This document shows positions 305 to 17,527 of a stretch of DNA of 64,000 nt, one piece after another (positions within the stretch are counted from its first letter, which is position 1; the number at the start of each line of letters is the position of its first letter). The notes below the pieces were generated by a model. It ran no database searches and was not told where the DNA came from. It saw only the letters and a list, made by a program, of their open reading frames with translations. This DNA comes from Mucilaginibacter phyllosphaerae (GTDB lineage Bacteria; Bacteroidota; Bacteroidia; Sphingobacteriales; Sphingobacteriaceae): NCBI RefSeq assembly GCF_004378255.1, contig NZ_SNQG01000001.1:930001-994000 (forward strand). The letters are read 5' to 3'. Both the position numbers and the translations under genes were made by a program.

Positions 305-2077
305 TTAATTCTTCGTATCTATCTTAGGTATGCTAAACATGGCCTCTTTAATGAATTTTACCGGGGCGCTGCCATAGCTCAAAAATTTTTCGTTAAATTG
401 TTTTAGCTTATAGTTATTGGCCTGCTTTTTCTTCCACTCATCATGCAGTGAATTTATCTCTTTATAGCCTGTATAATAGCTGGTTAACTGCACGCTGCTT
501 ACACTTACACGTTTCCATTTACCATCGGCTTCGGCTTGTTGCTGAAAGGCTTCTTTGGTAAGCATTTTTACGGCTTGTTCCTGGGTCATAGCGCCGGTGT
601 GCACGCTGTAGTCCAGTATGGTATTATACACCGAGCGGAGGTGCCATTTATACCACATCAGGCGCATTTCGGGGGCGTTATCGCCAAAACCTGCATCAAT
701 CATTTCCTGTTCGCTAAATACGGCCCAGCCCTCTATCATAGCACCATTGCTTAGTACAGATTTTATTAAACTTGGCGATTGATTGGCATACACCAGTTGC
801 GTGTAATGCCCCGGTATAGCCTCGTGGATGCAAAGGATCTGCAAAATATAGTCGTTATACTCGCGCAGGTAGCTTTCTGCCTTGCTGGCCGGCCAGCCGG
901 CTAAACTCCCTACGTTATAATAGGTATTGCCACCCTTGTCATAAGGCCCCGGCGAACTGACAGAAGCACCGGCAACACCCGCCATATAAGCAGGCTCTTT
1001 ACGCACTATCAGCGGCTTGGTTGGGTCTAAAGTAACCAGGTCTTTTGCTTTGATAAACGCAGTAAGCTTAGGGATCTCCCGTTCAATAGCCGACTGGAAA
1101 TCATCAGGCGCAACATGCTTGGCCGATAAGGTATCTATCACCCTGGCAATAAACTCCAGCGAATCTTTAGGTATAGGCTGCGTACCAAAATATTTTGGCC
1201 ACAGTTTACGGCTAAGTTTTGCCATTTCGCGGTGCAGGTACTTTTTACGTTCAACGGCCGAGTTAAAGGTTTGCTGCGCTGTACCTTCGGCCTGTATATC
1301 GTATTTAAACTTGGTTTCGTAAAGCTGCTTGCCCAGCCTAAAACTGCGGGGTTTATCATTCTTCAGCGCTTTTAAATAAGCAGCATATTCCTTAATGGCT
1401 GCCGCAGATACCTTGGCCCTGTCCAACATCAGTTTTTGTTCGGCGGCCGGGATATTTGTTTTCTTTAACGAATCGGCAAAATCGCTTTCGATAACGCTTA
1501 CACCGCCCAGATGCTGCTCGATAGCCAGGCTGGTTAATTCGGCAACCGGGTTTTTAAGTTGCTTTTCGGCCTCTTTATAATATGCCGGTATGTTCTCCAT
1601 TTTTTGGTAAAAGCTGCGCAGGCGTTTACTTAGCGGTGCATAAGACTCATTTAGTATGGTGGCAAAAGTGCCTATTACGTTATAGGAAGATGGGTCCCAC
1701 TGGTATTGTTTCAATTGCTCGGTGTTCCATTGCAGGCTTTCCATTTGGTTTTGCATCAAATGATGGTCTATCTTGTTCGCATCGTTCATGGTATTTACCT
1801 CGTAACGGTTCAGCGAATCTAATTGCACTTTAGCAAATTTGACGAGTTGCGCCCTGGTCTTATCATTCGGGACAAGCAGCACACTATCGTATTTATGGTA
1901 GCCTACGCTGGTAGCCCAGTCGGGATTATTTTTCCACAACTCTTCTAAAAAATGGTCTTCGTACCTGATAAAAGCTGCATCATCTCTCAACGAAACATCC
2001 TGCATAGATTGCCCGTCCTTTTTACAAGCGGTAAATGCGCCCACATACAGGGCCATTAATAGTATCTTTTTGATCAC
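305..2077 (-). CDS. DUF885 family lipoprotein, probable metallo-enzyme
   Basis: A 590-residue member of the DUF885 family, envelope proteins that look like zinc metallopeptidases of unknown substrate. The N-terminus (hydrophobic stretch ending AFTAC, Cys at residue 18) is a lipoprotein signal, so the mature protein is probably lipid-anchored and faces the periplasm or the cell surface. The HEAIPGH motif at residues 418-424 is the conserved HExxxGH-like metal site of the family, and the length is usual. The start is GTG at 2077; the next ATG (2056) would leave too short a signal peptide. It is convergent with the upstream septum gene and divergent from the DinB gene at 2172. A TTTG/N21/TAAGTTTA arrangement upstream resembles a Bacteroidota promoter. 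Substrate unknown. Confidence 0.85.
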   Translation of the reverse strand: MIKKILLMALYVGAFTACKKDGQSMQDVSLRDDAAFIRYEDHFLEELWKNNPDWATSVGYHKYDSVLLVPNDKTRAQLVKFAKVQLDSLNRYEVNTMNDANKIDHHLMQNQMESLQWNTEQLKQYQWDPSSYNVIGTFATILNESYAPLSKRLRSFYQKMENIPAYYKEAEKQLKNPVAELTSLAIEQHLGGVSVIESDFADSLKKTNIPAAEQKLMLDRAKVSAAAIKEYAAYLKALKNDKPRSFRLGKQLYETKFKYDIQAEGTAQQTFNSAVERKKYLHREMAKLSRKLWPKYFGTQPIPKDSLEFIARVIDTLSAKHVAPDDFQSAIEREIPKLTAFIKAKDLVTLDPTKPLIVRKEPAYMAGVAGASVSSPGPYDKGGNTYYNVGSLAGWPASKAESYLREYNDYILQILCIHEAIPGHYTQLVYANQSPSLIKSVLSNGAMIEGWAVFSEQEMIDAGFGDNAPEMRLMWYKWHLRSVYNTILDYSVHTGAMTQEQAVKMLTKEAFQQQAEADGKWKRVSVSSVQLTSYYTGYKEINSLHDEWKKKQANNYKLKQFNEKFLSYGSAPVKFIKEAMFSIPKIDTKN

Positions 2078-2171
2078 TGCGTTAAATTTTGCTTTGGTGC
2101 ATAAACTTAAAACTTTTGAAGCAAATAAATCAAACCCGGGCCTAATTTGTTAATTACAAAACAGATTAGTT

Positions 2172-2648
2172 ATGGATCATCAACACGATATACTGATAAA
2201 CGAATTAATAAAGCTGCTGGAAGGCGGCGGTGCGCACGCCACTTTAAAGGATGCACTCAGCGGTTTATCCGCCAACCTGCGCGGCAGTAAGCCCCACAAC
2301 TTGCCTTACAGCATCTGGCAACTGGCAGAGCATATCCGGATAGCACAGTGGGATATGCTGGAGTTTAGCAAGAACGGCAGCCATCAATCACTAAAATGGC
2401 CTGATGATTACTGGCCAAAAGAGGCCGAACCTGCAGATGACGACGCATGGAACAACACTATCGCCCAAATCGATGCCGACAGAAATGAGTTTATCGCCCT
2501 TTTAAAAAGTGGTAATATTTATGCCAAAATACCTCACGGCGACGGGCAAAGCATCCTGCGCGAGGCCTTACAGATAGCCGATCATAATGCATATCATATA
2601 GCAGAGATCATCCTACTGAGGCGTTTACTGGGCGCGTGGAAAAGTTAG
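2172..2648 (+). CDS. DinB-family (DinB_2/DUF664-like) protein
   Basis: A 158-residue four-helix DinB-like protein. This superfamily uses three His residues to hold a divalent metal; some members are thiol transferases, but most have no assigned reaction. Visible markers are the helix with AEHIRIAQWDM near residue 56 and the C-terminal DHNAYHIAEI helix, which carry the expected metal-binding His positions. Probably cytoplasmic, as there is no signal peptide. The stop is 7 bases from an AGCCTCACC repeat element that fills the gap to the convergent hydrolase gene. It is related only at family level to the second DinB protein at 45882. Biochemical role unknown. Confidence 0.8.
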   Translation: MDHQHDILINELIKLLEGGGAHATLKDALSGLSANLRGSKPHNLPYSIWQLAEHIRIAQWDMLEFSKNGSHQSLKWPDDYWPKEAEPADDDAWNNTIAQIDADRNEFIALLKSGNIYAKIPHGDGQSILREALQIADHNAYHIAEIILLRRLLGAWKS

Positions 2649-2655
2649 CAGATGT

Positions 2656-2746
2656 AGCCTCACCTAAATCCTTTTCAAAGCAGAGAACTTGAAAAAAACC
2701 TTCAACTATTAGAGCCCTCTCCTTTGGGAGAGGGCAGGGTGAGGCT
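2656..2746. repeat. Palindromic intergenic repeat, copy 1 (AGCCTCACC ends)
   Basis: A 91-bp unit bounded by inverted ends (AGCCTCACC at 2656-2664 and GGGTGAGGCT at 2737-2746). It contains an internal hairpin CCCTCTCC/GGAGAGGG near 2716-2735. The same unit occurs inside leuS at 8317-8401, with matching ends, matching CCTAAATCC and ACTT blocks and the same CCCTCTCCTTTGG core. It occupies essentially all of the space between two convergent genes, so it may also act as a bidirectional terminator. It has no coding capacity and looks like a REP/MITE-type non-autonomous element. Confidence 0.8.
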
Positions 2747-2749
2747 TTT

Positions 2750-4033
2750 CTACTTCAGCCCCTTCACAAAATTAGTTATTGCCGTTACCAGTTCGGGTTT
2801 CAGCGGCAGATCCGGATCGCTGTAGGTAGCCCGGTTCTTGTCTTTATCAGCCGGGGCTTCCTTTAGTATGTGGTTCATGTTGGGTATAATTACCAGGGTA
2901 GCGTCTGATTTTGCTTTTTTCAGCATATCGGCGTCCGTAGTGGGTACCTGTATGTCTGTTGTGCCCTGCAAGATCAATACCGGCACTTTAGCCTTTTTCA
3001 GCTCTCTTACCGGCATGTATCTAAACCACGATAATAAATAGGGCTGAATATCAGGCCGGGCTATAGGATAAAGTTTTGGGTCGATATTATCTGTGAATTT
3101 GCCTTTTTTCAGGCTGTCCAGCATGGTTTTAAAGTTATCCTGAATATACTTTGGATAAGCCTTCATTTGCTCGGTAACAACAATATCTGCCGAGCGGCCT
3201 GCACCGGCAACGGATATAAAAGCATTTGCAGGCTGATCGCGGATGGCTAACATGCCTACCAGCGAGCCCTCGCTGTGGCCCAGTACGATCACCTTCGAAA
3301 AACGCTGATCCTCGCTTAATAAATTGATCAGGCCCACAGCGTCATCTACATAATCTTCAAAACGCAATTCTTTCTCTTTGGTAGTAGTTGTGCTTTGGCC
3401 CACCATACGCTTATCGTAACGCAGGGTTGCAATGCCGTTTTTGCCCAGTTCGTTAGCCAGCATTTTATAGGTATTGCCGTTTAGGCCCAGTTTGGCGCTG
3501 TTACCATTCCTGTCTGTAGGGCCAGACCCGGGGATGATCAATACTACAGGGATCTTACCCGAAGCGTTAACCGGCATGGCTAAAGTGCCCGATATGGTGC
3601 CCGAAAATGTTTTGAGCAACACAGGCGATTCCTTTAAGGAAGCATCAAGGGCAATGGTTTTAGCTTCTTCTGCATACGGGCTCAATAATAAGCCGGTAAG
3701 CTTATTTTGGTTGTTTAATGATATATTTAACAAAAACACGGCATTATCAAAGGTTGCCTTATAAACTGCCAGCGGTTGGTTATACTTCAAAAAGTCTGCT
3801 TTTTTTAATGTGCCCAACTGAGATCGTAGCTGTACGGTTGTCGATTTGAATTTATCCAGCGGCAGGCTGGTTTTCATTTCGGGGCTAAACATATTAAATA
3901 TGCTATCGGGCTGGTTACCGTTATAAAACCGTACAAACTTGCTTGCTGTAAGTGCGTAATTAGCAGGCAAATCCTGTGCTTTTAACTGTGCGGTAAAAAA
4001 CAGGGCAAGTATTATAAAATATATCTTCTTCAT
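2750..4033 (-). CDS. Secreted alpha/beta hydrolase with N-terminal DUF3887-like domain
   Basis: A 427-residue secreted alpha/beta-hydrolase. Residues 1-19 form a signal peptide ending in KAQ. Residues ~25-115 match the DUF3887-type fold often fused to hydrolases in Bacteroidota. The hydrolase domain follows, with an oxyanion region VVLIIPGSGPTDRNG, the nucleophile elbow GHSEGS (Ser254), an acid region LILQGTTDIQVP and a catalytic His in NMNHILKE. The family includes esterases and peptidase-like enzymes; the substrate cannot be told from sequence. Its ATG (4033) faces the outer-membrane receptor gene at 4216 across a 182-bp divergent promoter region. Its stop is 3 bp from the palindromic repeat. 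Confidence 0.85.
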   Translation of the reverse strand: MKKIYFIILALFFTAQLKAQDLPANYALTASKFVRFYNGNQPDSIFNMFSPEMKTSLPLDKFKSTTVQLRSQLGTLKKADFLKYNQPLAVYKATFDNAVFLLNISLNNQNKLTGLLLSPYAEEAKTIALDASLKESPVLLKTFSGTISGTLAMPVNASGKIPVVLIIPGSGPTDRNGNSAKLGLNGNTYKMLANELGKNGIATLRYDKRMVGQSTTTTKEKELRFEDYVDDAVGLINLLSEDQRFSKVIVLGHSEGSLVGMLAIRDQPANAFISVAGAGRSADIVVTEQMKAYPKYIQDNFKTMLDSLKKGKFTDNIDPKLYPIARPDIQPYLLSWFRYMPVRELKKAKVPVLILQGTTDIQVPTTDADMLKKAKSDATLVIIPNMNHILKEAPADKDKNRATYSDPDLPLKPELVTAITNFVKGLK

Positions 4034-4215
4034 GTTATAATGATGGCTTTCTTCTTTGGCGAAATTAATAAAATTGCAAGTATTACCTTTAATAAATAGC
4101 CGCCGGCAACAATTTTAATATAAATTCGTAAAAGCTATAATAGGATGCAAGCATTTGTTATATTTAAAATCTAAAACTAAAATAACTATAAAGCAAATTT
4201 CTACGAGGTAAATTA

Positions 4216-6651
4216 ATGAGGGTTAAATTTGGTTGCTTTTTTACGGTTATCCTGGCAGGCTTATTTAATTTTTGTTACGCCCAAACAGGTTCATCGGTAA
4301 TTAGCGGGAGTGTTTGGATACAAAATAACCAGGCTGCCGATGCGGCCACCGTTGTTTTATTAAAACTGCCCGATTCTGCCGCGGTTGCATCTGCATTGGT
4401 TAACCCTAAAGGCAATTACCGGTTTACAGCTGTATCTGCAGGCGCATACCTTATTCTGGCTACCCGGCTTGGCTATAAAAAAGCCTATTCTGCAGTATAT
4501 ACTCTAAAACCCGGGCAAACGGTTTCGGCCGGTATCATTTTGCTATCCCCTGCCAGTAGCCAGCTTAAAGAAGTAGCCATTGTTGGCAGAAAACCTTATG
4601 TGGAAGTGCGGCCGGGCAAAACCATAATCAATCCATCAGCCAGCATCATTGCCGACGGGCAATCGGCACTGGATATTTTAAGGCAATCGCCGGGTGTGCG
4701 TGTGGATAATAACGAGAATGTAAGTATCAGCGGGCGGCAGGATGCCCTGATACTGATAGACGGGAAAGCCACTAATTTAAGCGGCGCCGACCTTACCGCG
4801 CTCTTAAAAAGCACCCAGGGCAGTAATATAGACCGCATGGAACTGATAACCGGCGGATCGGCAAAGTACGATGCTGCGGCGGGTGGTATCATCAACATCA
4901 TTTATAAAAAAGGGAAAAACCTGGGTACCAACGGCACTTTAAATACATCGGCAGGGTATGGTACCTATTACAAAGCCAACGCCGGTTTATCTTTAAATCA
5001 TCGCACCGCAGGCTACAATATTTTTGGTAATTATAATTTTACTGCCAACAAAACCTTCAGGGAGATCCTTACCGACAGGGGCATCAATTATGCCGGTGTA
5101 CAAAGCGATTATAACACCATGTATAACAACATCCAGCAAAACCGTAATCACGCCTTTGCGCTGGGTACAGATTTCTTTTTGTCGCCGGGCCAAAGCATCG
5201 GCTTTTTAGTTAACGGGTTTGTAAGCGATAATGTATTCCATAAAAACAATGATCTGCACATAACTAACCAGGGCGTGTTAGATTCTGTTATTAAGGCAAC
5301 ATCCGGCATAAACAGGGATATTACCAACATCAACTATAACCTAAATTATAACGGTACGCTTGATAAAACAGGCAGAAGTATATCGGCCAATATTACCTAT
5401 AACCATACTTCGCGCAAATCTGCAGAGTATATTACCAACGAATTTTTTGATGCAGCCGGCGCCGCTTACCGCAACCCATTGTTATTACAAAATATCTCTC
5501 CAACAAAAATCAATAACTGGACCGGTACCATAGCCTACACCAATCCGCTGCCAAAAGATGCCAAACTGGAAGCAGGCTTAAAATACAGTTATACCAATAC
5601 CGATAATAACCTTGTTTTTGGCCCGCAGGTTAATGGTATTTATACCATTGATAATAACTACAGCAATTACTTTATTTTTAAAGAAAGCATTGGCGCCGGT
5701 TATGTTAACTACAACGGCAAGTTTGGCAAGTTTGATCTGGAAAGCGGCCTGCGCGGCGAGTACACCTATAATAATGGCACATCGGTTACAAATAAGCATA
5801 CCACCATCCGCAAATACTTTAACCTGTTCCCCACTGTTTTATTAAATTACCGGTATAACGATAATAACGAATACGCCCTATCATTCACCAGAGGCATCAC
5901 CAGGCCCGGTTACGATAAGCTAAACCCCTTTTTATACTTTGTAGATCTGTATAATTACCAGGCGGGCAACCCCTACCTAATGCCCGAGTACAATAGTTCG
6001 GTAAGGTTAACACATACTTACAAGCAGCAAACAGTTACCGCTTTATACGCCACTTTGCTTACAGGTGCGTCGTTCCCGTTCTATAACCAAAATGATACCA
6101 CCAAAATAAGCACCACTACCAATGTTAATCTGGGCCGGCTTTATACTTATGGCATCAACATCAATACACCTGTTACTTTTACCACATGGTGGCGCAGCAC
6201 TTATGATATTGATGCATCTTACCAGCGGTACGTAGCTTACAGCCAATATGGCAACCTAAACAAAGGCACCGGCGATGTTATTATTAATACCACCCAGTAT
6301 TTTCAATTAAACAGCACTATAACGGCACAATTAAGCGGTAAATACGAAACCGCCACCTTTTACGGCATTAACCAGTTTAGGCCAAACTATTTTATGAATG
6401 CGGGCATCAGTAAACAAATATTAAACAAACTTGGCCGCCTTAGCCTTGTTGCCGAAGATATTTTCAGAACGAACAGAGACCGTGCCTACACCAATTACCA
6501 AAACCTTAACCGTAGCATGGTAGACAGGAGAGAATACCGCAAAGTTACTTTAAGCTTTAGCTACCGCTTTGGTAAAGCAACCGTAAAAAGCGCTGCAAAA
6601 CACGTTATCGGTAACGAGGATATCCAAAACCGTATCCGGTTGAACAATTAA
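4216..6651 (+). CDS. TonB-receptor-like outer-membrane beta-barrel protein
   Basis: An 811-residue outer-membrane protein of the 'outer membrane beta-barrel family' (TonB-dependent receptor-like). Order: signal peptide (residues 1-23), a carboxypeptidase-regulatory-like Ig domain (~28-110), a plug domain beginning with the KEVAIVGRKPYVEV segment and including the ILRQSPGVRVDNNENVSISGR region, then an aromatic- and Asn/Tyr-rich barrel with the family landmark RPGYDKLNPFLYFVDLYNYQ. Transport of a bulky ligand powered by TonB is the usual role of relatives, but several members of this subfamily have no known ligand. No SusD-like partner is adjacent, so it is not an obvious polysaccharide locus. 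The stop overlaps the convergent KTSC gene by 4 bp. Confidence 0.85.
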   Translation: MRVKFGCFFTVILAGLFNFCYAQTGSSVISGSVWIQNNQAADAATVVLLKLPDSAAVASALVNPKGNYRFTAVSAGAYLILATRLGYKKAYSAVYTLKPGQTVSAGIILLSPASSQLKEVAIVGRKPYVEVRPGKTIINPSASIIADGQSALDILRQSPGVRVDNNENVSISGRQDALILIDGKATNLSGADLTALLKSTQGSNIDRMELITGGSAKYDAAAGGIINIIYKKGKNLGTNGTLNTSAGYGTYYKANAGLSLNHRTAGYNIFGNYNFTANKTFREILTDRGINYAGVQSDYNTMYNNIQQNRNHAFALGTDFFLSPGQSIGFLVNGFVSDNVFHKNNDLHITNQGVLDSVIKATSGINRDITNINYNLNYNGTLDKTGRSISANITYNHTSRKSAEYITNEFFDAAGAAYRNPLLLQNISPTKINNWTGTIAYTNPLPKDAKLEAGLKYSYTNTDNNLVFGPQVNGIYTIDNNYSNYFIFKESIGAGYVNYNGKFGKFDLESGLRGEYTYNNGTSVTNKHTTIRKYFNLFPTVLLNYRYNDNNEYALSFTRGITRPGYDKLNPFLYFVDLYNYQAGNPYLMPEYNSSVRLTHTYKQQTVTALYATLLTGASFPFYNQNDTTKISTTTNVNLGRLYTYGININTPVTFTTWWRSTYDIDASYQRYVAYSQYGNLNKGTGDVIINTTQYFQLNSTITAQLSGKYETATFYGINQFRPNYFMNAGISKQILNKLGRLSLVAEDIFRTNRDRAYTNYQNLNRSMVDRREYRKVTLSFSYRFGKATVKSAAKHVIGNEDIQNRIRLNN

Positions 6652-6869
6652 AGGTACTTCACCTTTTCTTCGGGATACTTACCCTTTATTTTGGTTACAA
6701 AAAAGTGCCCGAGCGATTGGCTGCTGATGAATTTTTTATAGGCCGGGGGTTTAAAATTAAAGTACTGCCACACACCGCCGTTTTCTTTAAACTCCAGTTC
6801 GAGGATGTGTTTATCTGCATCGTAACCAATGCTTTGTAAGGCCGATGATTGTACCGGATGCCTGCGCAT
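6648..6869 (-). CDS. KTSC domain protein
   Basis: A 73-residue protein made almost entirely of a KTSC domain (named after the KTSC domain of lysyl-tRNA synthetase-associated proteins), a small fold of unknown function. Visible hallmarks are PVQSSALQSIGYD near the start, ILELEFKENGGVWQYFNFKPPAYKKF in the middle, and a final LGHFFVTKIKGKYP. I place the start at the ATG at 6869 (MRRHPVQSS) because this matches the usual family start; a TTG eight codons upstream is less likely. The 3' end overlaps the stop of the convergent receptor gene by 4 bp. Confidence 0.85.
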   Translation of the reverse strand: MRRHPVQSSALQSIGYDADKHILELEFKENGGVWQYFNFKPPAYKKFISSQSLGHFFVTKIKGKYPEEKVKYL

Positions 6870-6911
6870 AATATGATAGCAGGGCAAAGCCAAAAAAGTT
6901 TTTACAAAATG

Positions 6912-7295
6912 TTAACCGGCATGGCCGCTAAAGGCACTGATAACAATAACAAGCAACACAATAAAAGTAATAAAGGTGTACAGGTAATCTTTTTCGAGGA
7001 TAAAACCAATTGCGCTGAATATTACACGTACCACAGGTGTGGCTATCAATAAAACAATACCGGCCTGTATAATGGCCCTGCCCCTTAAAGTAAGTATGCC
7101 GTTGATGATGCCTGCCGGGCTATGGATAAAATCGGGCACGCCTTTAAACACATGATAGTTGGTTATTACATGGCCGTGGCGGTACAGGTAAATAACGCCG
7201 CCGGTAAAAACAACCAGCATAGATACAAATACCCCGGCACGCAGTACCCAGCCTATTACCGCCTGCATATCTTTATCCTTAAACCGCTGTGTCAT
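6912..7295 (-). CDS. DUF1634 family membrane protein
   Basis: A 127-residue integral membrane protein of the DUF1634 family, with helices at roughly residues 14-34, 62-84 and 101-121. In many bacteria DUF1634 genes sit directly beside a TauE/SafE-type sulfite/anion exporter; no such gene is adjacent here, so its partner, if any, lies elsewhere. The start ATG at 7295 is preceded by a promoter-like pair on the minus strand: TTG, 20 bases, then TATTTTCG (one mismatch to TAnnTTTG), giving a very short leader. It is divergent from leuS. Function not established. Confidence 0.8.
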   Translation of the reverse strand: MTQRFKDKDMQAVIGWVLRAGVFVSMLVVFTGGVIYLYRHGHVITNYHVFKGVPDFIHSPAGIINGILTLRGRAIIQAGIVLLIATPVVRVIFSAIGFILEKDYLYTFITFIVLLVIVISAFSGHAG

Positions 7296-7438
7296 TGCGG
7301 TCGAAAATAAGGGATAAAAAACGGCTTACCAAGTTTAATGTTAACCTATATATTATATAGACTTTATTGAAACTCACTGGCAAACGCTGATGTTAAAGCA
7401 GTTTTTACTATTTTCGCAACCTTATACGGTAAAAGCAA

Positions 7439-10348
7439 ATGGACTATCAATTTCAAAAAATAGAGAAGGACTGGCAGAAATTCTGGGCCGAAAACAAAAC
7501 TTTCAGGGCCGATAATCAATCTGGTAAACCCAAGTATTATGTGCTGGATATGTTTCCCTACCCATCGGGCGCGGGGCTGCATGTTGGCCATCCGCTGGGC
7601 TACATCGCTTCTGATATTTTTGCACGTTACAAGCGCCTAAAAGGCTTTAACGTATTGCACCCCATGGGATACGATAGCTTTGGCCTGCCTGCCGAGCAAT
7701 ATGCCATACAAACCGGGCAGCATCCATCGGTTACTACCGAGGATAATATAGCCACTTACCGCCGTCAACTGGACCAGATCGGTTTCTCGTTCGACTGGGA
7801 CCGCGAGGTACGCACCAGTTCGCCCGATTATTATAAGTGGACACAGTGGATATTTATGCAGCTGTTTAACAGCTATTACGATAAAGATGCTGATAAGGCG
7901 CAAAGCATTGCCAAACTGGTAGCGCATTTTGAAAGTAATGGTTCTGCCGGTGTAAATGCCGTTTGCGATGAAGAAGTTTTAAGCTTTACCGCCGATGAAT
8001 GGAAAGCATTTAGCGCGCAGCAACAGCAAGCCGAATTGCTAAAATATCGCCTTACCTACCTGCGCGAAAGTACCGTTAACTGGTGTGCCGCATTAGGTAC
8101 CGTACTGGCTAACGACGAGGTGAAAGATGGCTTTAGCGAGCGCGGCGGCTACCCTGTAGAACAAAAGAAAATGATGCAGTGGAGCATGCGCATTACCGCC
8201 TATGCCCAGCGCCTGTTACAAGGCCTTGACCATATTGACTGGCCCGAGCCGCTAAAAGAAATGCAACGCAACTGGATAGGTAAAAGCGTTGGCGCAAGCG
8301 TAAGGTTTCCGTTGGAAGCCTCACCTAAATCCTCTCCAAAGGAGAGGACTTCAGAAGAAGGTTCTAACTCCCTCTCCTTTGGAGAGGGCCGGGGTGAGGC
8401 TGCTTCCTACATTGAAGTTTTCACTACCCGTGTAGATACTGTTTTTGGGGTAAGTTTTTTGGTGATAGCGCCCGAGCATGAGCTGGTGGCTGAATTAACC
8501 ACGCCCGGGCAAAAGGCCGACATTGAGACCTACATTGCCCAAACCAAAAAGAAAAGCGAGCTTGACCGTATGGCCGATACTAAAACGGTATCAGGCGCAT
8601 TTACGGGCAGCTATGTAACTAACCCGCTTAATGGCGAGAAAGTGCCGGTGTGGATAGCTGATTATGTTTTGGCCGGCTATGGTACCGGTGCCGTGATGGC
8701 CGTACCATCTGGCGACCAGCGCGACTTTTTGTTTGCCAAACATTTTAACCTGCCCATCATCCCGATCATCGATATCCAGAATATTGAAATAGAAGCCGAC
8801 CCGACCAAGGAAGGTAAATACATTAACAGTGATTTTATAAACGGACTGGGCTACAAAGAGGCCACAGCCGCAGTAGTTGCCAGGCTGGAAGAACTTGGCT
8901 TAGGCAAAGCCAAAGTAAACTTCAGGATGCGGGATGCTATTTTTGGCCGCCAGCGCTACTGGGGGGAGCCGGTGCCGGTTTACTTTAAAGACGGCCTGCC
9001 CTATTTGATAGAAGAGCAGCACCTGCCATTGTTATTGCCCGAAATTGATAAATACCTGCCAACCGAAAGCGGCGAACCGCCACTGGGCCGCGCTACGGAT
9101 TGGAGCTACAAAGCAGAAGGTAAAGTATCCCCTATCGGGGAAGATTTAGAGGGGGCCGAGGCCTTCTACGCTTACGAACTAAGCACCATGCCGGGTTGGG
9201 CAGGCAGCAGCTGGTACTGGTACCGTTATATGGATGCCCATAACGACCAGGAATTTGCATCGCGCGAGGCTATTGAATATTGGAAAGATGTGGATTTGTA
9301 CATCGGCGGCAGCGAACATGCTACCGGCCACCTTTTGTATAGCCGTTTCTGGAACAAGTTTTTAAAGGATATTGGTAAAGTGGTTGAGGAAGAGCCTTTC
9401 AAAAAACTGATTAACCAGGGAATGATACAGGGTAGAAGTAATTTCGTGTATCGGTTGATAGATGAAGAAGGAAAAGGCACTAATACATTTGTTTCGCACG
9501 GCTTGATCAAAGAATACAAAACATCGCCGCTACATGTTGATGTAAACATTGTAGAGAACGAAGTTTTGAATGTGAACAAGTTTAAAGCATGGAGAGAAGA
9601 CTTTGCTGATGCTGAATTTATTTTAGAGAACGGCAAATACATCTGCGGTGTTGAAGTCGAAAAAATGTCCAAATCCAAGTTTAACGTGGTAAACCCGGAT
9701 GATCTGATTGCCCGTTACGGAGCAGATACCCTGCGCATGTACGAGATGTTTTTAGGTCCGCTGGAGCAGAGTAAGCCATGGAATACTAACGGTATCGAGG
9801 GTGTATTCAAATTCCTGCGTAAATTCTGGAAGCTTTTTCATGATGCCGATTTTAACTTTAACGTAAGTGACGAAGCGCCTACCAAAGCCGAGCTGAAATC
9901 GTTACATAAGATCATCCAGAAAGTGGAGCAGGATATCGAACGTTTTTCGTTCAATACATCCGTATCCAGCTTTATGATAGCGGTTAACGAACTTACCGAC
10001 CTTAAATGCAGCAAACGTGCTATTTTGCAGGAATTGGTGATTACACTTGCCCCTTACGCACCGCACATCTGCGAGGAGCTTTGGACACTGCTGGGTAACC
10101 CTGCCGGCACAATATCTACCGCGGCTTACCCTATATTTAACCCGGCTTACCTGGTAGAAGATGAATTTAGCTACCCGGTATCTTTCAACGGTAAGATGAA
10201 AACCAATGTCAGCCTGTCGTTAACTATGGAAACCGCTGATATTGAGGCTGCTGTTTTAGCCAATGCCGATGTACAAAAATACCTGGATGGCAAAACCCCT
10301 AAAAAGGTGATTGTGGTAAAAGGCCGCATTGTAAATATCGTAATATAA
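7439..10348 (+). CDS. leuS: Leucyl-tRNA synthetase with in-frame repeat insertion
   Basis: Class Ia aminoacyl-tRNA synthetase that charges tRNA-Leu and edits mischarged products in its CP1 domain. The HIGH-type motif is HVGH at residues 48-51 and KMSKS is at 742-746. The editing domain begins with [10 protein letters not shown] (~328), followed by the zinc-less [17 protein letters not shown] catalytic region and a C-terminal anticodon-binding domain. At 969 residues it is longer than most homologues (about 920-940 in the phylum). Residues ~294-324 are encoded by a palindromic intergenic repeat lying in frame just before the editing domain, and residues ~561-574 may be a second, smaller insertion. 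A TATTTTCG -7-like box lies at 7409-7416. A strong intrinsic terminator follows. Confidence 0.97.
8317..8401. repeat. Palindromic repeat, copy 2, inside leuS
   Basis: An 85-bp copy of the element at 2656-2746. Ends AGCCTCACC (8317-8325) and GGGTGAGGCT (8392-8401) are inverted; internal arms CTCTCCAAAGGAGAGG (8332-8347) and CCCTCTCC/GGAGAGGG (8370-8388) form two hairpins. It is read through in frame and adds a Ser/Glu/Gly-rich segment containing SPKERT and LSFGEGRGE to leucyl-tRNA synthetase, without a stop codon. Confidence 0.85.
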
Positions 10349-10363
10349 ATATTCAACTATTTA

Positions 10364-10420
10364 AGCCTCTGTGCATTTATGGCCCTGTTACAGGGGATTG
10401 TAAATGCACAGGGGCTTTTT
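10364..10420 (+). terminator. Intrinsic terminator of leuS
   Basis: Arms at 10364-10379 and 10401-10416 (AGCCTCTGTGCATTTA against TAAATGCACAGGGGCT, one G-T pair) enclose a second small hairpin CCCTGT-T-ACAGGG. Five T residues follow. It starts about 16 bp after the leuS stop. Confidence 0.9.
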
Positions 10421-10542
10421 GCTGCGCCTTAGTGTAACATGTACATTACATTGCTACATAATCGGGGTAAAATTTAACCTGCCTGTAACATTTTAGGCAT
10501 TTTTGCCTCCAATTACCAAAACGCCTAAAAACGCTCAAATTT

Positions 10543-13089
10543 ATGAAACGTATATTTTTACTTTTAATAGTTATCTGTACTGCTGTATTAGCCAAAGCCC
10601 AGATTCCGGGCGGTGGCGGGGGTTCCAGCATTGTGGGGAAAATCTCTGGTACGGTGATAGATTCACTTACCAAAAAACCGGTTGACTATGCAACCATCAG
10701 CCTGTTCAAAAGCGGCGCAAAATCGCCCGTAAACGGTGTTTTAACGGACGAAAAAGGGAACTTTAAGATCGATAACGTGCGTGCCGGTAAATATAAGATC
10801 ACCATATCATTTATCGGGTACCCAACCAAAACTTTCGACCCGGTTGAAACCACCGCGGCAAAGCCGGACAATAATATGGGTACCCTTGTTTTGGCCCCAA
10901 GTGCAAAAGCGCTTAAAGAGGTACAGATTGTTGGTCAGCAGGCGCTGGTAGAAAACAGGATCGACAAGATCGTTTACAACGCCGAAAAAGATCTTACCGC
11001 AGCAGGTGGCAATGCTACAGATGTACTGCAGAAAGTGCCCCTGGTATCTGTTGACATGAACGGTAACGTAGCCATCCGCGGCGATCAGAACGTTCGCGTG
11101 TTGATAAATGGTAAACCATCCGGCGCAACATCAGCAAGCTTAAGCGATGTATTAAAAACCATCCCTGCCGATCAGATCAAAAACATTGAGGTGATAACCT
11201 CGCCATCAGCTAAATATGATGCGGAGGGATCTGGCGGTATCATTAATATCATCACTAAAACAAAAAATGCATCAGGTATAAGCGGTTCTGTTAGCGGTGG
11301 TGTGGGTACACGCCAAAATAACGGTAACGTGAATTTAAACTACAATAAAAACCGCTTTAACTTCTCTGCCAACCTAGGCGGCAACCTTACTTGGCCACAA
11401 ACATCAACTACCCTGTTTGACCAAACGATCCAAACAGGCGCTGTTAACCAGCGCAACGTAAACAACACCAGCAATGAAATTAAACGCCACGGTGCAAGAG
11501 GTACGTTAACCGCTGGTTACGAGTTTAATGGCTTTAACAGCATTAACAGTACGCTGGCCTTAAATGATGGTGGCTTTAACGCTAATGGCGGTGGTACATA
11601 CAGTATCAAAGATTTAATTGATTCTACAAAAAACCTTAACTATATTGGTAAAACCGGTTCTAAAAATAAGTTTAGCGGGTTTGACTGGAATGTAGATTAC
11701 ACGCACAAATTTAAAAAGGAGGGCCATGAGATCACGGTATCGGGCCAGTGGAGCCACAGTATTATCAAAACAGATTATACCAGCTTATTCAGCGCAAGGC
11801 AACCCAGCCAAAAGGGCGATAACAACGGCAAAAACAATGAATATACCGCCCAGGCAGACTACACCCTGCCTATCAGCAAAACTTTAAAGCTTGAGGCAGG
11901 TGGTAAAACTATACAAAGGCGTATAAACAGCGTTTACAATATTTATTCGGTAGATTATCCTAACGGCGATAACCCAATTTTAGATACAGAGAACTCTAAC
12001 CTGTATAATTACAATCAAAATGTTTATGCCGGTTATAGTGTGTTTACCATTACATTACCAAAAAGTTATTCGTTATTAGCCGGTTTCCGTTATGAGAACA
12101 CCCGTATAAAAGGTGACCCCGAAACGCCTTTTGCAAGCGGCGAGAACCAGCAAGTATTAAGCCCGTTTTCGGCAAGCTATAATACTTATGTACCAAGCTT
12201 AACCTTACAAAAAGTATTTGGTGCCAATACATTAAAACTATCCTACAGCAAGCGTATCCAAAGGCCATCTTTGCAGGTATTAAATCCGTTTATCAACAGA
12301 AGCAGCATTCAGGCACAATCAGTTGGTAACCCTAATCTGGCGCCGGAGGTATCTCAAACTGTTGAATTAAATTATAACACCTACATCAAATCTTCCGTAA
12401 TAAACTTCTCGGTTTATTATAAAAGAACTAATGACCTGATAGAAGGTATAGCAAGGCCAATAACCGAAATAGTTGGAGACAGCACTGTAAACGGTACCCG
12501 TACAGAGCAAAATAACGTGGCCAGAAATAACTCGGTAGGTGCAAGCTTCTTCGGTTCGATAACGCCTTTCAAAGCACTAACCATACGTGCTAACATTAAC
12601 CTGTTTACTTATAACCCAACAGTTTATGCGCAATACGCTGGCTTTGTAAACCAGGATGCTTTAAAAACAAGGCTGATGTCTACCATGTTTGGCAGTGCAC
12701 AGCTTACCTTGCCTAAAAACTTTATTGTAGAGGCCTTTGGTTTTACCAACTCTGCCCGCAGAACCATACAGGGTACCAGCCCGGCGTTTGGTATCTATGC
12801 CTTTGGTATTAAAAAACAGTTTATGGATAAAAAGGCTTCTATTGGCTTTAACACCGTGCAGCCTTTTGCAGTTAATAAATCATTTAACCAAAATATATCA
12901 AGCCCTGGTTTTACCCAGGTTAGCAGTACACAGTTTCCTTTTCAATCTTTTGGTATAACATTTAGCTACAGCTTCGGTAAAATAAGCTTTAGCAACCCGC
13001 AGCAAAAGAAAAAGAAAGGCGTTAATAACGACGACCAGATACAGGGCGGCGACCAAACCGGCGGCGGCGCACCGGCCGGCGGCAGATAA
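10543..13089 (+). CDS. TonB-receptor-like outer-membrane protein with Gly-rich tail
   Basis: An 848-residue outer-membrane beta-barrel family protein. Order: signal peptide (1-19), a Gly-rich linker, a carboxypeptidase-regulatory-like domain (~30-110) with the GTVIDSLTKKPVDYATISL signature, a plug (KEVQIVGQQALVENRIDKIV through VITSPSAKYDAEGSGGIINI), then the barrel with the SYSKRIQRPSLQVLNPFIN landmark seen in relatives. The C-terminal ~27 residues are charged then Gly-rich (KKKKGVNNDD followed by GG repeats), extending past the usual final aromatic strand. It is paralogous at family level to the protein at 4216. Ligand unknown; no SusD partner is present. Confidence 0.85.
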   Translation: MKRIFLLLIVICTAVLAKAQIPGGGGGSSIVGKISGTVIDSLTKKPVDYATISLFKSGAKSPVNGVLTDEKGNFKIDNVRAGKYKITISFIGYPTKTFDPVETTAAKPDNNMGTLVLAPSAKALKEVQIVGQQALVENRIDKIVYNAEKDLTAAGGNATDVLQKVPLVSVDMNGNVAIRGDQNVRVLINGKPSGATSASLSDVLKTIPADQIKNIEVITSPSAKYDAEGSGGIINIITKTKNASGISGSVSGGVGTRQNNGNVNLNYNKNRFNFSANLGGNLTWPQTSTTLFDQTIQTGAVNQRNVNNTSNEIKRHGARGTLTAGYEFNGFNSINSTLALNDGGFNANGGGTYSIKDLIDSTKNLNYIGKTGSKNKFSGFDWNVDYTHKFKKEGHEITVSGQWSHSIIKTDYTSLFSARQPSQKGDNNGKNNEYTAQADYTLPISKTLKLEAGGKTIQRRINSVYNIYSVDYPNGDNPILDTENSNLYNYNQNVYAGYSVFTITLPKSYSLLAGFRYENTRIKGDPETPFASGENQQVLSPFSASYNTYVPSLTLQKVFGANTLKLSYSKRIQRPSLQVLNPFINRSSIQAQSVGNPNLAPEVSQTVELNYNTYIKSSVINFSVYYKRTNDLIEGIARPITEIVGDSTVNGTRTEQNNVARNNSVGASFFGSITPFKALTIRANINLFTYNPTVYAQYAGFVNQDALKTRLMSTMFGSAQLTLPKNFIVEAFGFTNSARRTIQGTSPAFGIYAFGIKKQFMDKKASIGFNTVQPFAVNKSFNQNISSPGFTQVSSTQFPFQSFGITFSYSFGKISFSNPQQKKKKGVNNDDQIQGGDQTGGGAPAGGR

Positions 13090-13122
13090 TCAGCCAAAAT
13101 CAACAATTAATATATCATAGCA

Positions 13123-13157
13123 AACGCCCCTTCGGAAAACTGAAGGGGCGTTGCTTT
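13123..13157 (+). terminator. Intrinsic terminator of the receptor gene
   Basis: Perfect 11-bp arms, AACGCCCCTTC at 13123-13133 and GAAGGGGCGTT at 13142-13152, with an 8-base loop. A T-rich run (GCTTTTTA) follows. It lies between the receptor gene and the convergent hicB gene. Confidence 0.88.
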
Positions 13158-13198
13158 TTAATGATTATTATAGCTTATATACTTACTGGCAAGTATAA

Positions 13199-13591
13199 TC
13201 AGGCATGTTCAAAAGAAGCATCTTGTTTACCATCTATAGCAGTAGCAATTTCCTTTTTATGATCGAGCGTATAGGAAAGTGCTACCTTAACAAATTCGTT
13301 AAGTGTAATATTATGAATAGCCGCATACAATGCAGCTTCTTTGTGCAAATTGGCAGGAACACGAACATTGAAAGTCCCTTTATACGTCTTATCCGGTTCT
13401 TTACCAATCTCTATACACGTTTCTAAATAATCTTCTACTGCTTCTTCGAAAGAAATTTTAAGTTCTGCAACTGATGAGCCCTCAAAGCTTACCAAATCAT
13501 TTATACCTAAGACTTTTCCAAAGAAAACTTCATCAGTAGCGCTAAACTGCACCGATGCGTAATAGTTTTTATATTGTAGGATGTCATTCAT
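13199..13591 (-). CDS. hicB: HicB-family antitoxin
   Basis: A 130-residue antitoxin of a type II HicAB module. Residues ~1-65 form the degenerate RNase-H-like HicB fold (YYASVQFSATDEVFFGKVLGI, then the SVAELKISFEEAVEDYLE helix). Residues ~72-112 are a ribbon-helix-helix DNA-binding domain (TFNVRVPANLHKEAALYAA, NEFVKVAL). It should neutralise HicA and repress its own operon through the RHH domain. It is the second gene of the pair and overlaps the end of hicA by 8 bp, which fits translational coupling. The plausible operator is the inverted repeat at 13933-13954. Confidence 0.9.
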   Translation of the reverse strand: MNDILQYKNYYASVQFSATDEVFFGKVLGINDLVSFEGSSVAELKISFEEAVEDYLETCIEIGKEPDKTYKGTFNVRVPANLHKEAALYAAIHNITLNEFVKVALSYTLDHKKEIATAIDGKQDASFEHA

Positions 13592-13847
13592 CTTGTATGT
13601 GACCCTTTTCTTTTAAATGAGCAATAACTTGTTTTAAAGCATATGCTTTAACAATGTTACCGGGGTGAGGTTTATGAAGCGTGATAACTTCTTTTTTGCT
13701 ATCAACAAATCTTCTTCTTGATCCACCTGTTTTGCCACCGGTTAATTCTTCGTAGCCAAAAAAAGCTACAATTTTACATAATTCATCCCAGGTAAAGTCC
13801 TTGGGAACAGATAACAACCGACTGATTAATTTGTCTTGTATGGACAT
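13584..13847 (-). CDS. hicA: HicA-family mRNA interferase toxin
   Basis: An 87-residue toxin of the HicA family, small dsRBD-fold proteins that cleave mRNA independently of translation. Landmarks are the FTWDELCKIVAFFGYEE helix, GKTGGSRRRF at 38-47 and TLHKPHPGN at 57-64. Canonical HicA proteins carry a catalytic His in a GSHH-type motif; here that position is Arg (GSRRRF), a variant I recall for a Bacteroidota subfamily, leaving His58 and His61 as the only nearby histidines. It is first in the hicA-hicB pair, as is canonical. The leader is about 100 bases from the predicted start point in 13933-13954. Activity is uncertain because of the motif change. Confidence 0.88.
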   Translation of the reverse strand: MSIQDKLISRLLSVPKDFTWDELCKIVAFFGYEELTGGKTGGSRRRFVDSKKEVITLHKPHPGNIVKAYALKQVIAHLKEKGHIQDE

Positions 13848-13932
13848 GCGTTAATGACTTGAAATTTTTCATTTGTTTTCCCTCAAACTTTTACTTTTTA
13901 ACTATCTTACTTTTTACTTCTATTTCGGGACG

Positions 13933-13989
13933 ATACAATATAATTATACTGTATTATCAAAAATAAAAATTTTAATTAATATTTGCAAC
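13933..13989 (-). promoter_or_regulatory. hicAB promoter and candidate HicB operator
   Basis: Read on the minus strand: a -33 element GTTG (13986-13989), 20 bases, then TATTTTTG (13958-13965), an exact match to the Bacteroidota -7 consensus TAnnTTTG. The expected start of transcription falls near 13951, within an inverted repeat at 13933-13954 (arms ATACAATATAA and TTATACTGTAT, 10 of 11 pairs matching). A repressor bound there would overlap the start site, as expected for autoregulation by the RHH antitoxin. Operator function is inferred. Confidence 0.65.
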
Positions 13990-14014
13990 TAATTTTCAGT
14001 TGCAAACTGAAAAT
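13983..14014. repeat. Two overlapping, mutually exclusive hairpins upstream of hicAB
   Basis: Hairpin 1 pairs TTGCAACT (13983-13990) with AGTTGCAA (13998-14005). Hairpin 2 pairs ATTTTCAG (13992-13999) with CTGAAAAT (14007-14014). Both have perfect 8-bp arms and 7-base loops and share bases, so only one can form at a time. The segment sits between the hicAB promoter -7 box and the eno terminator, and includes the -33 element. Confidence 0.7.
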
Positions 14015-14020
14015 ATGACA

Positions 14021-14055
14021 AAAAAAGCCGGTCAATCACTTAACCGGCTTTTCGT
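14021..14055 (-). terminator. Intrinsic terminator of eno
   Basis: Arms AAGCCGGT (14025-14032) and ACCGGCTT (14043-14050) with T/A-rich flanks on both sides. Reading on the minus strand, the hairpin is followed by a run of T (14021-14026 complement). It lies 30 bp past the enolase stop. Confidence 0.88.
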
Positions 14056-14084
14056 ATTTTATTGCCCTTCAAGAGGTTGGGGGA

Positions 14085-15389
<1,305 letters not shown>

Positions 15390-15488
15390 TTATTATCGGA
15401 TTTTGAGTGTTTACTATACTAATTTAGTGGGCTAAGTTAAGTGCAAAAACAGGAAATACCAACGCAAATTTTGTATTTGTAATGATTA

Positions 15489-16223
15489 TTAATCGTTTGT
15501 GGTAGGGATATGCTCTTTAGGCTTACCATTCTTGCGGTTAATACGGTACATAACCGTTATGGCCAGATTATTTTTTGCCCCGGCAGATGTAAGGCTGTAA
15601 TTATACTGATCCAGATAGCCTGCCTGCACACTCAAAGATTTATCGAACTGGTAACCCAGAGCTGCCGAAAAACGGTTACGCTCGAAATGCGGGGCCTTGT
15701 TGTTAAAAAAAACTTCGTCGAATATGGATACGAAAAAGGTTTTGGGCGAGATCTTTTTATGGTTTATCGGGATAACCGCATTTAAACGATAACGGAACCT
15801 ATTGCGATAGATGCCATTTAGCCAGCGCTGTTCGGCCCGATAGCGGTGCTCCAGTTTTATCCTGTCTAAAAAAGAGTTGATGGTAAGCTGCTCCCACATC
15901 CTGAATTCCTGCACGGTGGGCGGTGCATCCAGGTTAGTAAAATCTTTGGTTACGTATCTGCCGGTACCAAATAATGCCGTGTAGTTATTCGCAATATCGT
16001 AGCTTACGCCACCTTTTGTTTCGTAATAAAAAAATTGGTTAAACAATTCGTTAGCACGCGATTGCAATTCGATGTATCCACCCCATTTATGTGTACTATC
16101 GCCGGGTAATACAACGGTAGCGATGGCCCAGGTACCGGTTTTATAATTTTGCGCGTTAACTTTTAATGAACAAACCGTTAACATAAACAACACCAGGGTT
16201 AAATAACCAGTATTTTTTAACAT
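15489..16223 (-). CDS. DUF2490 outer-membrane protein (paralogue 1)
   Basis: A 244-residue DUF2490 protein: signal peptide (1-24, ending NAQ), then amphipathic beta strands rich in aromatic residues, with the EQLTINSFLDRIKLEHRYRAEQRW core and RNRFRYRLNAVIPI strand typical of the family. The protein is predicted to be a small outer-membrane barrel; no transported substrate is known for the family. Two tandem paralogues lie at 41271 and 42092, but this copy is clearly more distant from them. The upstream spacer (16260-16342) holds six TGTTAA half-sites, in both orientations, that could be regulatory. Confidence 0.82.
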   Translation of the reverse strand: MLKNTGYLTLVLFMLTVCSLKVNAQNYKTGTWAIATVVLPGDSTHKWGGYIELQSRANELFNQFFYYETKGGVSYDIANNYTALFGTGRYVTKDFTNLDAPPTVQEFRMWEQLTINSFLDRIKLEHRYRAEQRWLNGIYRNRFRYRLNAVIPINHKKISPKTFFVSIFDEVFFNNKAPHFERNRFSAALGYQFDKSLSVQAGYLDQYNYSLTSAGAKNNLAITVMYRINRKNGKPKEHIPTTND

Positions 16224-16272
16224 TCTATTAATCTAATTTTAATACAAAAGTATTTCCCTATTGTTAGCTAAG

Positions 16273-16342
16273 TGTTAACATAGCAAGTGTTAATATTATT
16301 AATGTGTTAAGCATTTGACCTAATGTTAATTTAACATTAACA
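16273..16342. promoter_or_regulatory. Cluster of TGTTAA motifs upstream of DUF2490 gene
   Basis: TGTTAA occurs at 16273, 16288, 16305 and 16324, and its complement TTAACA at 16331 and 16337, so six copies fall within 70 bp at 15-19 bp spacing. The copies at 16324 and 16331 form a perfect palindrome, AATGTTAA-T-TTAACATT. The copy at 16305 extends to TGTTAAGCAT, the same 10-mer found twice upstream of the gene at 35456. The helical-repeat-like spacing suggests a cooperative regulator site; A+T richness makes chance occurrence possible. Confidence 0.5.
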
Positions 16343-16366
16343 AAAAAGGCGCCACGTAGCGCCTCC
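16342..16366 (-). terminator. Terminator of the ABC-2 transporter operon
   Basis: Arms GGCGC (16348-16352) and GCGCC (16359-16363) with a 6-base loop. On the minus strand they are followed by TTTTTTG. It lies about 45 bp after the permease stop. Confidence 0.75.
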
Positions 16367-16408
16367 AAGTCTTTATTGCTTATTCTAAATCCTGAGTCTA
16401 TTATCTTT

Positions 16409-17527
16409 TTACTCCCATTTAAACGTTTTAACCGCTACTGCATAGATCCCTATCCCCCAAAGCAGCAGTATAAATAACTGGTGGGTAACATCGCCCAGGC
16501 CGGCACCCTCAAAGGCTACCTTACGCATCGCATTATTTAAATGGGTAAGCGGTAGCACATTGCTTAAATGCTGCAACCAAACCGGGAAGGCCGTTACCGA
16601 AAAAAACGTACCCGACAGCAGAAACTGAGGCATGGTAATAATATTAGAAATAGGCGGCACCGAACTTTCGTTTTTAGCTATGCCGGATATGGTAAAGCCA
16701 AACCCCATAAAAATGATGAGCCCGATGGTACAAAGCACCAGCATATTTAATACCGTAACCACACCATGTATCAGTGTAAAACCAAAAACAAAGTGCCCCA
16801 CCATAATAATAAACAAAGCGCCCAATAACGAGAATACGATCCGCGCCAATGCCTCGCCCAATACAATGCTGTAGCGTTTAACCGGGGTGGCAAAAAAGCG
16901 TTTAATAACCAGCGTAAGGCGTAAGCTTAAAAATACAAAGGCTGTACCAAACACCCCGCTGCTTAACAACGAAAAGCCCAACTGCCCGGGCAAAATAAAA
17001 TCGATGTATTTATATTCACGGCCGGTTACCACGGTTTCTTTCAGATCTACCGCATTTGGAATAGGGATACCCGAAAATTGCTGGATCTTTTTAAACTGTT
17101 CTGACTGGATCCTGTAAAAAATATTATTCAGTACCGATTTTAACACAGAACCTTTATCGCCCGATGCATGGCTGTATTGTACACTCATGCCAATGGGTTT
17201 CATAGCCACAAATGGCTTCATATCTATAATGGCGTCAATACTACCCTTGGCCAGGTTCTTGCGCATCTCATCTGCCGTTTGATTTTTAATAAGGTGGATG
17301 ATCTTATTCTGGGCAAGCGCTTTGTAAACGGGATTAAGCGTATCGGCACCTTTGGCTACACCTACATCTACAGACATGCCTCCGCCGCCAATATTGGCAA
17401 ATACCACAATAAATATCAGCGGGAAAGCCAAACTAAACACTACCGCAGATGGACTGCGGAGTATAGAACGGAAACTGGCCCTGGCAATGGCAAGGGTTGC
17501 GCGGGTATTGTTATATTTTTGGTTCAT
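16409..17527 (-). CDS. ABC-2 type transporter permease
   Basis: A 372-residue membrane subunit of an ABC exporter of the ABC-2 family. Topology visible: one helix near residues 23-45, a ~120-residue extracytoplasmic domain, then five helices between ~175 and 368 (LGFSLLSSGVFGTAFVFLSL, IVFSLLGALFIIMVGHFVFG, MLVLCTIGLIIFMGFGFTI, PPISNIITMPQFLLSGTFF and the C-terminal LFILLLWGIGIYAVAV). It lies 88 bp downstream of its ATPase gene in the same direction and should form the transport complex with it. Substrate unknown: relatives export drugs, lipids or polysaccharides. Confidence 0.88.
   Translation of the reverse strand: MNQKYNNTRATLAIARASFRSILRSPSAVVFSLAFPLIFIVVFANIGGGGMSVDVGVAKGADTLNPVYKALAQNKIIHLIKNQTADEMRKNLAKGSIDAIIDMKPFVAMKPIGMSVQYSHASGDKGSVLKSVLNNIFYRIQSEQFKKIQQFSGIPIPNAVDLKETVVTGREYKYIDFILPGQLGFSLLSSGVFGTAFVFLSLRLTLVIKRFFATPVKRYSIVLGEALARIVFSLLGALFIIMVGHFVFGFTLIHGVVTVLNMLVLCTIGLIIFMGFGFTISGIAKNESSVPPISNIITMPQFLLSGTFFSVTAFPVWLQHLSNVLPLTHLNNAMRKVAFEGAGLGDVTHQLFILLLWGIGIYAVAVKTFKWE

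Follow-up and report, generated by a model that had tools for sequence, protein, structure and literature searches.

The 64,000-nucleotide stretch of the Mucilaginibacter phyllosphaerae genome analysed here (contig NZ_SNQG01000001.1, positions 930,001–994,000; hereafter the window) carries the leucyl-tRNA synthetase (LeuRS) gene leuS at positions 7439–10348 of the plus strand and, within it, a palindrome at 8317–8401 (plus strand) that is read in frame. The gene is an uninterrupted open reading frame (ORF) of 969 amino acids with Pfam matches to the LeuRS editing domain, tRNA-synt_1 and Anticodon_1; its product contains HVGH at residue 48 and KMSKS at residue 742, which we take to be the class I synthetase motifs, and a search of the window's genome found one copy of the LeuRS C-terminal half. 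The palindrome begins with AGCC, ends with GGCT and has two arms of a kind that we term type A, 78% complementary to each other and separated by 5 nt: the left arm (8317–8356, plus strand), which is a hairpin in itself (CCTCTCC AAA GGAGAGG), and the right arm (8362–8401, minus strand). Folded as a single strand, it reaches −56.2 kcal/mol, as opposed to −29.5 ± 3.5 kcal/mol for 200 shuffled sequences, none of which equalled it (z −7.6). A preliminary description of this DNA had reported an 85-bp inverted palindrome in frame in leuS, that is, a palindromic repeat serving as coding sequence in an essential enzyme, and the complementarity of the arms, the folding energy and the open frame all agree with that report. 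Its estimate of about 30 added residues was right as to the stop-free read-through, the exact length being 28 amino acids (residues 294–321, site S1, where the editing domain begins), but it overlooked a second, partial repeat in the same gene, a type B right arm at 9122–9157 (plus strand; residues 562–573, site S2). Two candidate identities were rejected: a known RNA, as Rfam gave no matches in window positions 1–20000 or in four further loci, and a phage origin of the 85-mer, which had no match in a phage collection at E 1e-5.

The type A palindrome also exists by itself between genes, at 2656–2746 (plus strand). As the preliminary description had assumed, the two copies share more than a short hairpin, because they align over the full length (78% identity, 69.8 bits, E 4e-13 in BLAST) and match at both ends (81% over 48 nt and over 32 nt). 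Searching the whole genome with the repeat unit gave 40 BLAST rows at E up to 10, a number that counts both strands of self-complementary copies; they represent 19 distinct places, with four weak ones (E 0.17–4) left aside. Exact matches to the core CTCTCCNNNGGAGAGG number 16 per strand, compared with 0 for a reversed-pattern control. Judged by stop-to-stop frames, most of the 19 places are intergenic or at gene ends, and two are clearly within conserved genes, namely leuS and a uvrA gene. The latter (L004, G000:C10:168037–168075), whose product has Pfam UvrA domains, contains half a palindrome in frame, EEASPKSYPKERTSENGE, read as ASPKSYPKERT.

From 149 Mucilaginibacter genomes we extracted 130 leuS ORFs, one per genome; the remaining 19 genomes include fragmentary or strongly interrupted matches, and one of them, G060, was added later as L249. 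These LeuRS sequences vary strongly in length at three sites, S1, S2 and S3, the last being the stretch ahead of KMSKS. According to peptide patterns, on which the site classes rest and which make the counts approximate, a repeat-type peptide or a nuclease is present at S1 in 27 of the 130 and at S2 in 37 (17 of them with a nuclease of the DUF559 family), something is inserted at S3 in six, and at least one of the three sites is filled in 50. On a LeuRS tree of 124 rows (FastTree, insert columns excluded, many weak forks; the partial or truncated L152, L153, L155, L156, L157 and L159 left out), the presence of repeats at S1 calls for at least 21 changes and that of the nuclease at S2 for at least 13, and sister sequences such as L154/L124, L083/L140 and L091/L148 are unlike in insert state. 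The two-armed type A form occupies the S1 loop in nine of the 130, including that of the window. The expectation that the segment would be confined to this lineage was therefore wrong, and the suggestion of repeated capture is upheld by the changes at S1. Among the nine, the first 35 nt of the left arm have a median pairwise identity of 0.97, as opposed to 0.48 at fourfold-degenerate core sites, so the type A arms are either recent or kept as DNA. Two further variants were seen in these proteins. The stretch before KMSKS (window residues 664–750; L060–L158) has an 85-residue form in 89 of the 130 and a form of 121–163 amino acids in 39, many of the latter scarcely alike among themselves; and S2 of L080 (1742–2125) holds a different domain of about 128 amino acids with an ATKW/ATDW near-duplication at its ends, for which there was no significant Pfam match (best E 0.18) and no PADLOC match.

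The same loops can hold a nuclease. An in-frame DUF559 (Vsr-like) domain of about 105 amino acids is present in 18 of the 130 LeuRS, at S2 in 17 and at S1 in L093, mostly between arm-encoded peptides, and in most cases Pfam also places a restriction-enzyme-like family at its position. Residues R33, R34, Q35, H36, D44, E55, D57 and H61 are invariant in all 13 aligned domains, and this conservation, together with a low dN/dS (0.075–0.148, ratio of means), indicates an intact nuclease. In the PDB the domain is related to 3hrl, an endonuclease-like protein (E 1.9e-29), and to 3r3p, a mobile intron protein (E 5.6e-6) and presumably a homing endonuclease of the EDxHD/Vsr-like kind; one of three domains scanned with PADLOC showed distant similarity to its HEase profile (E 3.7e-5). 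We compared the arms of 18 long S2 inserts, L080 with its other domain among them: in 13 of the 17 nuclease inserts the left arm and the reverse-complemented right arm are 0.89–1.0 identical over 36 nt (type B arms). The palindrome of the window, too, shares its terminal inverted repeats with a longer, gene-carrying element, as the reverse complement of the terminal 32 nt of its right arm (8370–8401) matches, base for base, the terminal inverted repeat of the DUF559 element found in the IcmF-like ORF L172. Because relatives carry DUF559 at S1 or S2, mostly between such arms, the repeat is more plausibly the nuclease-less version of a larger, in-frame element than an ordinary repetitive extragenic palindromic (REP) sequence or miniature inverted-repeat transposable element (MITE). 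The REP/MITE-like interpretation given at first rightly saw a palindromic repeat captured as coding sequence but overlooked the nuclease in the same loops of relatives.

LeuRS is not the sole host in the genus: an IcmF-like mutase and an Lhr-type helicase contain an embedded DUF559, TruB carries one at its C-terminus, and HisF and HisH (HisH by sequence reading only) each have one fused to the N-terminus. A wider set of named contigs comprises the best 80 of 576 confirmed candidates, among the matches listed, with 81 domains, and its make-up is for that reason no census. Its titles are mostly of Bacteroidota, and at least four belong to other phyla (L295, L300, L304, L314). In this set, 56 domains are internal to long ORFs, six are C-terminal, five N-terminal, and 14 have fewer than 150 amino acids on both sides. 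By sequence motif the hosts are LeuRS at S1 (21) and S2 (12), IcmF (10), MetH (6), IleRS (4), TruB (2) and Lhr (1), besides 16 others and nine short ORFs; in one LeuRS (L308) both S1 and S2 hold a DUF559 domain. Pfam scans of representatives back LeuRS, IcmF-like mutase, Lhr, TruB, MetH, DegT, MmeI, HisF-type proteins and a class I synthetase, which we read as IleRS from its sequence. By a loose pattern, a repeat-type peptide lies within 70 amino acids on at least one side in 54 of the 56 internal cases and on both sides in 37. Of 296 genomes sampled across the phylum, 126 encode a domain of the DUF559 kind at E 1e-10, embedded or not. The sole DUF559 match of the window's genome (L160, G000:C21:90835–91143) is in frame at the N-terminus of HisF in the his operon, where a repeat-like peptide, KLPLQGAGG, also occurs upstream of a HisH-like start. 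In L233 (G044:C1:505000–510000) two nearby copies, one on HisF and one on HisH, cluster in the DUF559 tree, and the IcmF-like ORF L173 contains a DUF559 element and, elsewhere, a nuclease-less palindrome encoding a 28-residue peptide. In the window itself, a repeat scan found longer direct repeats at 41269–42494 and 60048–60687, with copies 81–86% and 72% identical.

Most of these domains are flanked by inverted repeats. Of 69 embedded or fused rows from the genus, 63 had an inverted-repeat score that none of 60 shuffles reached, as did 67 of 80 contig cases, and the score was higher than that of a same-strand control in 65 of the 69 and in 65 of the 80; medians at DUF559 were 27 (genus) and 25 (contigs), compared with a 99th percentile of 20 and a maximum of 23 at 500 random window places. 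The 69 rows include four genes fetched twice (65 after removal of identical DNA), one of the 81 contig domains was left out for its short flank, and the shuffles permute two-base blocks, so that dinucleotides are not exactly preserved. Arm patterns of types A–D occur within 250 bp of DUF559 in 52 of the 69 embedded or fused rows and 50 of the 81 contig domains, as opposed to one of 42 low-scoring, mostly stand-alone rows (38 of the 40 stand-alone loci L191–L230, L236, L242 and two pieces of the interrupted HisF fusion L235). The regular expressions for arms and repeat peptides are loose and these counts approximate, the peptide counts having no chance control; the negative control for pattern B is invalid because that repeat is nearly its own mirror image. 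The low-scoring domains are bracketed by other hairpin repeats, mostly of the GACTCACCC... and ACACACCCC... kinds in the 22 loci displayed. DUF559 lineages and repeat families thus seem to be matched. At some of the stand-alone loci L191–L230, repeats of the GACTCACCC or ACACACCCC kind are found in inverted and direct orientation alike.

Taken together, the leuS segment is probably a nuclease-less, MITE-like or REPIN-like (REP doublet forming hairpins) copy, or else a footprint, of in-frame elements with the order arm–DUF559–arm. Elements of this design have two inverted, hairpin-forming arms around a reading frame for a DUF559 (Vsr-like, PD-(D/E)XK) endonuclease; in Bacteroidota they occur in frame within conserved housekeeping proteins, in loops or terminally, and would be translated along with them, without splicing. 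DUF559 would be responsible for movement: the nuclease may cut the DNA of the arm or the target, at or near it, and repair would then copy the element to new or empty sites in a homing-like or transposition-like manner. Short palindromes could have arisen by loss of the nuclease or could have been moved in trans. The hosts might tolerate the insertions since the arms would encode soluble, probably disordered linkers rich in Ser, Pro, Lys, Glu and Gly.

A number of observations weigh against this interpretation. Cleavage by the nuclease and movement of the element are inferred, and a comparison of filled and empty sites found no target-site duplication, the junctions being too diverged for a clear reading. 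From one species to another the S1 and S2 junctions shift by several codons, something that strict site-specific homing does not predict. Type B arms on both sides are missing from four of the 17 nuclease inserts at S2. The single, hisF-fused DUF559 of the window's genome is flanked by repeats other than type A, so no cognate nuclease was found there for the type A copies; G053, in which no DUF559 was found, has 51 type A copies per strand, and some DUF559 carriers, such as G048 and G006, have none. Low-scoring DUF559 domains exceed the shuffles with inverted repeats of their own in 39 of 42 cases, and just 18 of the 42 exceed the same-strand score because direct repeats are present too; inverted repeats of different sequence likewise flank 11 of 27 RAYT (REP-associated tyrosine transposase) loci. 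The dN/dS of the nuclease (ratio of means, 0.075–0.148) derives from just 3–6 unsaturated pairs per host group. The closest DUF559 pairs (L086/L087 and L081/L085) are the closest pairs in the host core as well, so part of the pattern is vertical. In one of the 16 HisF fusions (L235) a stop codon interrupts the nuclease, so that HisF must start within it; translation of HisF could also start at a codon within the nuclease part in the others.

Several of these points would equally suit ordinary REP or MITE palindromes moved by RAYT or another unlinked transposase, with DUF559 as a passenger or the repeats as insertion hot spots. RAYT-type Y1 transposases are present in 133 of the 149 genus genomes, and the copy number of type A does not follow the presence of DUF559; inspection by eye brought out no correlation with DUF559 or RAYT presence. 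The window's genome has type A copies and one DUF559, of the HisF kind. However, the arm patterns that accompany 52 of the 69 embedded or fused DUF559 were found at none of 28 sampled RAYT (Y1_Tnp) loci, and on this sample RAYT was rejected as the partner of these arms. The 16 genomes without a Y1 match include G115 and G051, with 13 and 10 copies per strand, and one would not expect passengers to lie in frame, using the same loops in several hosts. We consider this alternative unlikely.

There is little probability that the insert is a LeuRS domain or linker, for example a regulatory one, that was selected by the host, inherited vertically and lost in some lineages. The low dN/dS of the nuclease and the agreement of its closest pairs with those of the host core would fit such descent. 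Nevertheless, the distances of DUF559 at S2 do not follow those of the LeuRS core (rho −0.01, n = 14 carriers; 988 of 2000 permutations as high), whereas seven 105-column blocks of the core, a control of like length, give rho 0.25–0.60. Similar arms and nucleases are also found in unrelated enzymes, and the identity of the arms as DNA is kept at synonymous positions (0.97 vs. 0.48). In the DUF559 tree, in which 67 of 133 inner branches are unresolved, domains of the genus group largely by host site, with exceptions that suggest rare jumps between sites: LeuRS-S1 of L169 (= gene L093) falls within the IcmF elements, and the copy on HisH in L233 falls within those on HisF. The lack of correlation and the agreement of the closest pairs fit horizontal spread with some vertical descent and are no proof of homing.

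It is very improbable that the insert is removed after transcription or translation, as an intron, an intein or by translational bypass, leaving a normal enzyme. The insert does form a strong hairpin, and inteins and introns also favour conserved genes. However, no Hint or intein domain is found among the Pfam matches of 11 DUF559 hosts (E limits 1e-3 and 1e-6), for which intein identity was rejected, and around the nuclease gene at four loci Rfam gave no match to an intron RNA at gathering scores. No stop breaks the frames anywhere, which bypass would not need. In 15 of the 16 HisF fusions, among them the one in the window's genome, the DNA joining DUF559 to the HisF core lacks ATG, GTG and TTG alike, so that HisF starts in or before the nuclease frame. 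The LeuRS C-terminal half is at one locus, that of the fusion, in all 17 genomes with a nuclease-LeuRS that were checked; 13 of these are at least 90% complete, and they include the single-contig G023 (S2) and G041 (S1). In the predicted structure of the window's LeuRS, the predicted local distance difference test score (pLDDT) is below 50 at residues 295–321, between predicted strands 282–292 and 324–329, and at 561–573. Low pLDDT at the inserts is weak evidence of disorder because the conserved catalytic stretches 35–59 and 68–83 are equally low. The AlphaFold model of L266 shows the DUF559 region (581–680) as an alpha/beta unit of its own with pLDDT 67–87, flanked by low-confidence linkers at 536–559 and 682–694. 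Both models were based on 21 sequences each and have a mean pLDDT of 73–75; in a PDB fold search, the 50 listed of 286 matches were whole LeuRS chains. An assembly or annotation artefact has a practically negligible chance, for although many relatives are draft or metagenome assemblies, the nuclease in LeuRS is seen in the single-contig genomes just named and close homologues recur across separate assemblies.

Beyond the reading of the leuS segment as a nuclease-less copy or footprint, the arms and DUF559 could constitute a new class of mobile element, splicing-free, in-frame and of homing type, that enters loops of essential enzymes, is translated with them, spreads between alleles and genes by means of its nuclease, and seeds the short palindromes of Bacteroidota, with that nuclease as their mobilising enzyme; we put this forward tentatively, at somewhat less than an even chance, and it would be such a class if the nuclease were shown to move the element. 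Annotated DUF559 fusions would then be selfish passengers in LeuRS (the sole copy found in the 17 carriers checked), HisF, TruB and MetH, and a mobile element would have a way to hide from counterselection without introns or inteins.

Among known systems, REPINs and MITEs consist of two inverted arms round a short spacer and can be derived from a longer, gene-carrying element. The leuS palindrome shares this arrangement, including the longer element with a gene, but that gene encodes a Vsr-like nuclease instead of a transposase, the element is read in frame, and a comparison of sites with diverged junctions found no target-site duplication. Vsr-like/EDxHD homing endonucleases, represented by 3r3p, resemble DUF559 in profile (E 5.6e-6), in their conserved housekeeping hosts and in their patchy distribution; here, in contrast, no intron or intein was found, the junctions are not exactly fixed and the host protein retains the domain.

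Intragenic REPs of the GTAG and CGTC families (Di Nocera et al. 2013) are hairpin repeats, often in inverted pairs, in coding genes (PMC3733652). According to the available text of that paper, their hosts include uvrA, tRNA synthetases and truB, a striking overlap with the host types found here, and the GTAG REPs are associated with RAYT, whereas the CGTC REPs are said to have no dedicated transposase. The elements described here have other tags (neither GTAG nor CGTC is present at either end of the window element), their arms bracket DUF559, and no link to RAYT was seen in the sample of 28 loci. As the same LeuRS loops can contain either the palindrome by itself or a form that includes a conserved nuclease, it becomes testable how palindromes reach coding genes, some families reportedly having no dedicated transposase (PMC3733652), and why the genes survive.

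Rickettsia palindromic elements (RPEs), with which the preliminary description had aptly compared the insert, are likewise in-frame palindromes in unrelated ORFs that are tolerated by the protein, as outlined in the available text of PMC10969869. Like them, the window palindrome is read stop-free inside a conserved ORF and has copies elsewhere in the genome. By description, not by sequence comparison, it differs in its ends, since the RPE sequences of R. conorii are reported to end in CGTC (available text of PMC3733652) and the window element runs from AGCC to GGCT; it also differs in that DUF559 can lie between the arms, while the available text of PMC10969869 and PMC3733652 mentions no nuclease inside RPEs. 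Caulobacter VsrA, a DUF559 protein described in the available text of PMC12907096 as a Vsr-like, putative mismatch-repair nuclease, has the same Pfam domain and belongs to the same PD-(D/E)XK superfamily, but it is encoded by its own gene, whereas the DUF559 domains described here are embedded between arms in other enzymes. A literature search limited to open-licence papers found no publication that presents DUF559 as a partner of in-frame palindromes. In-frame palindromes are already known; their connection with a nuclease-carrying element is the new point.

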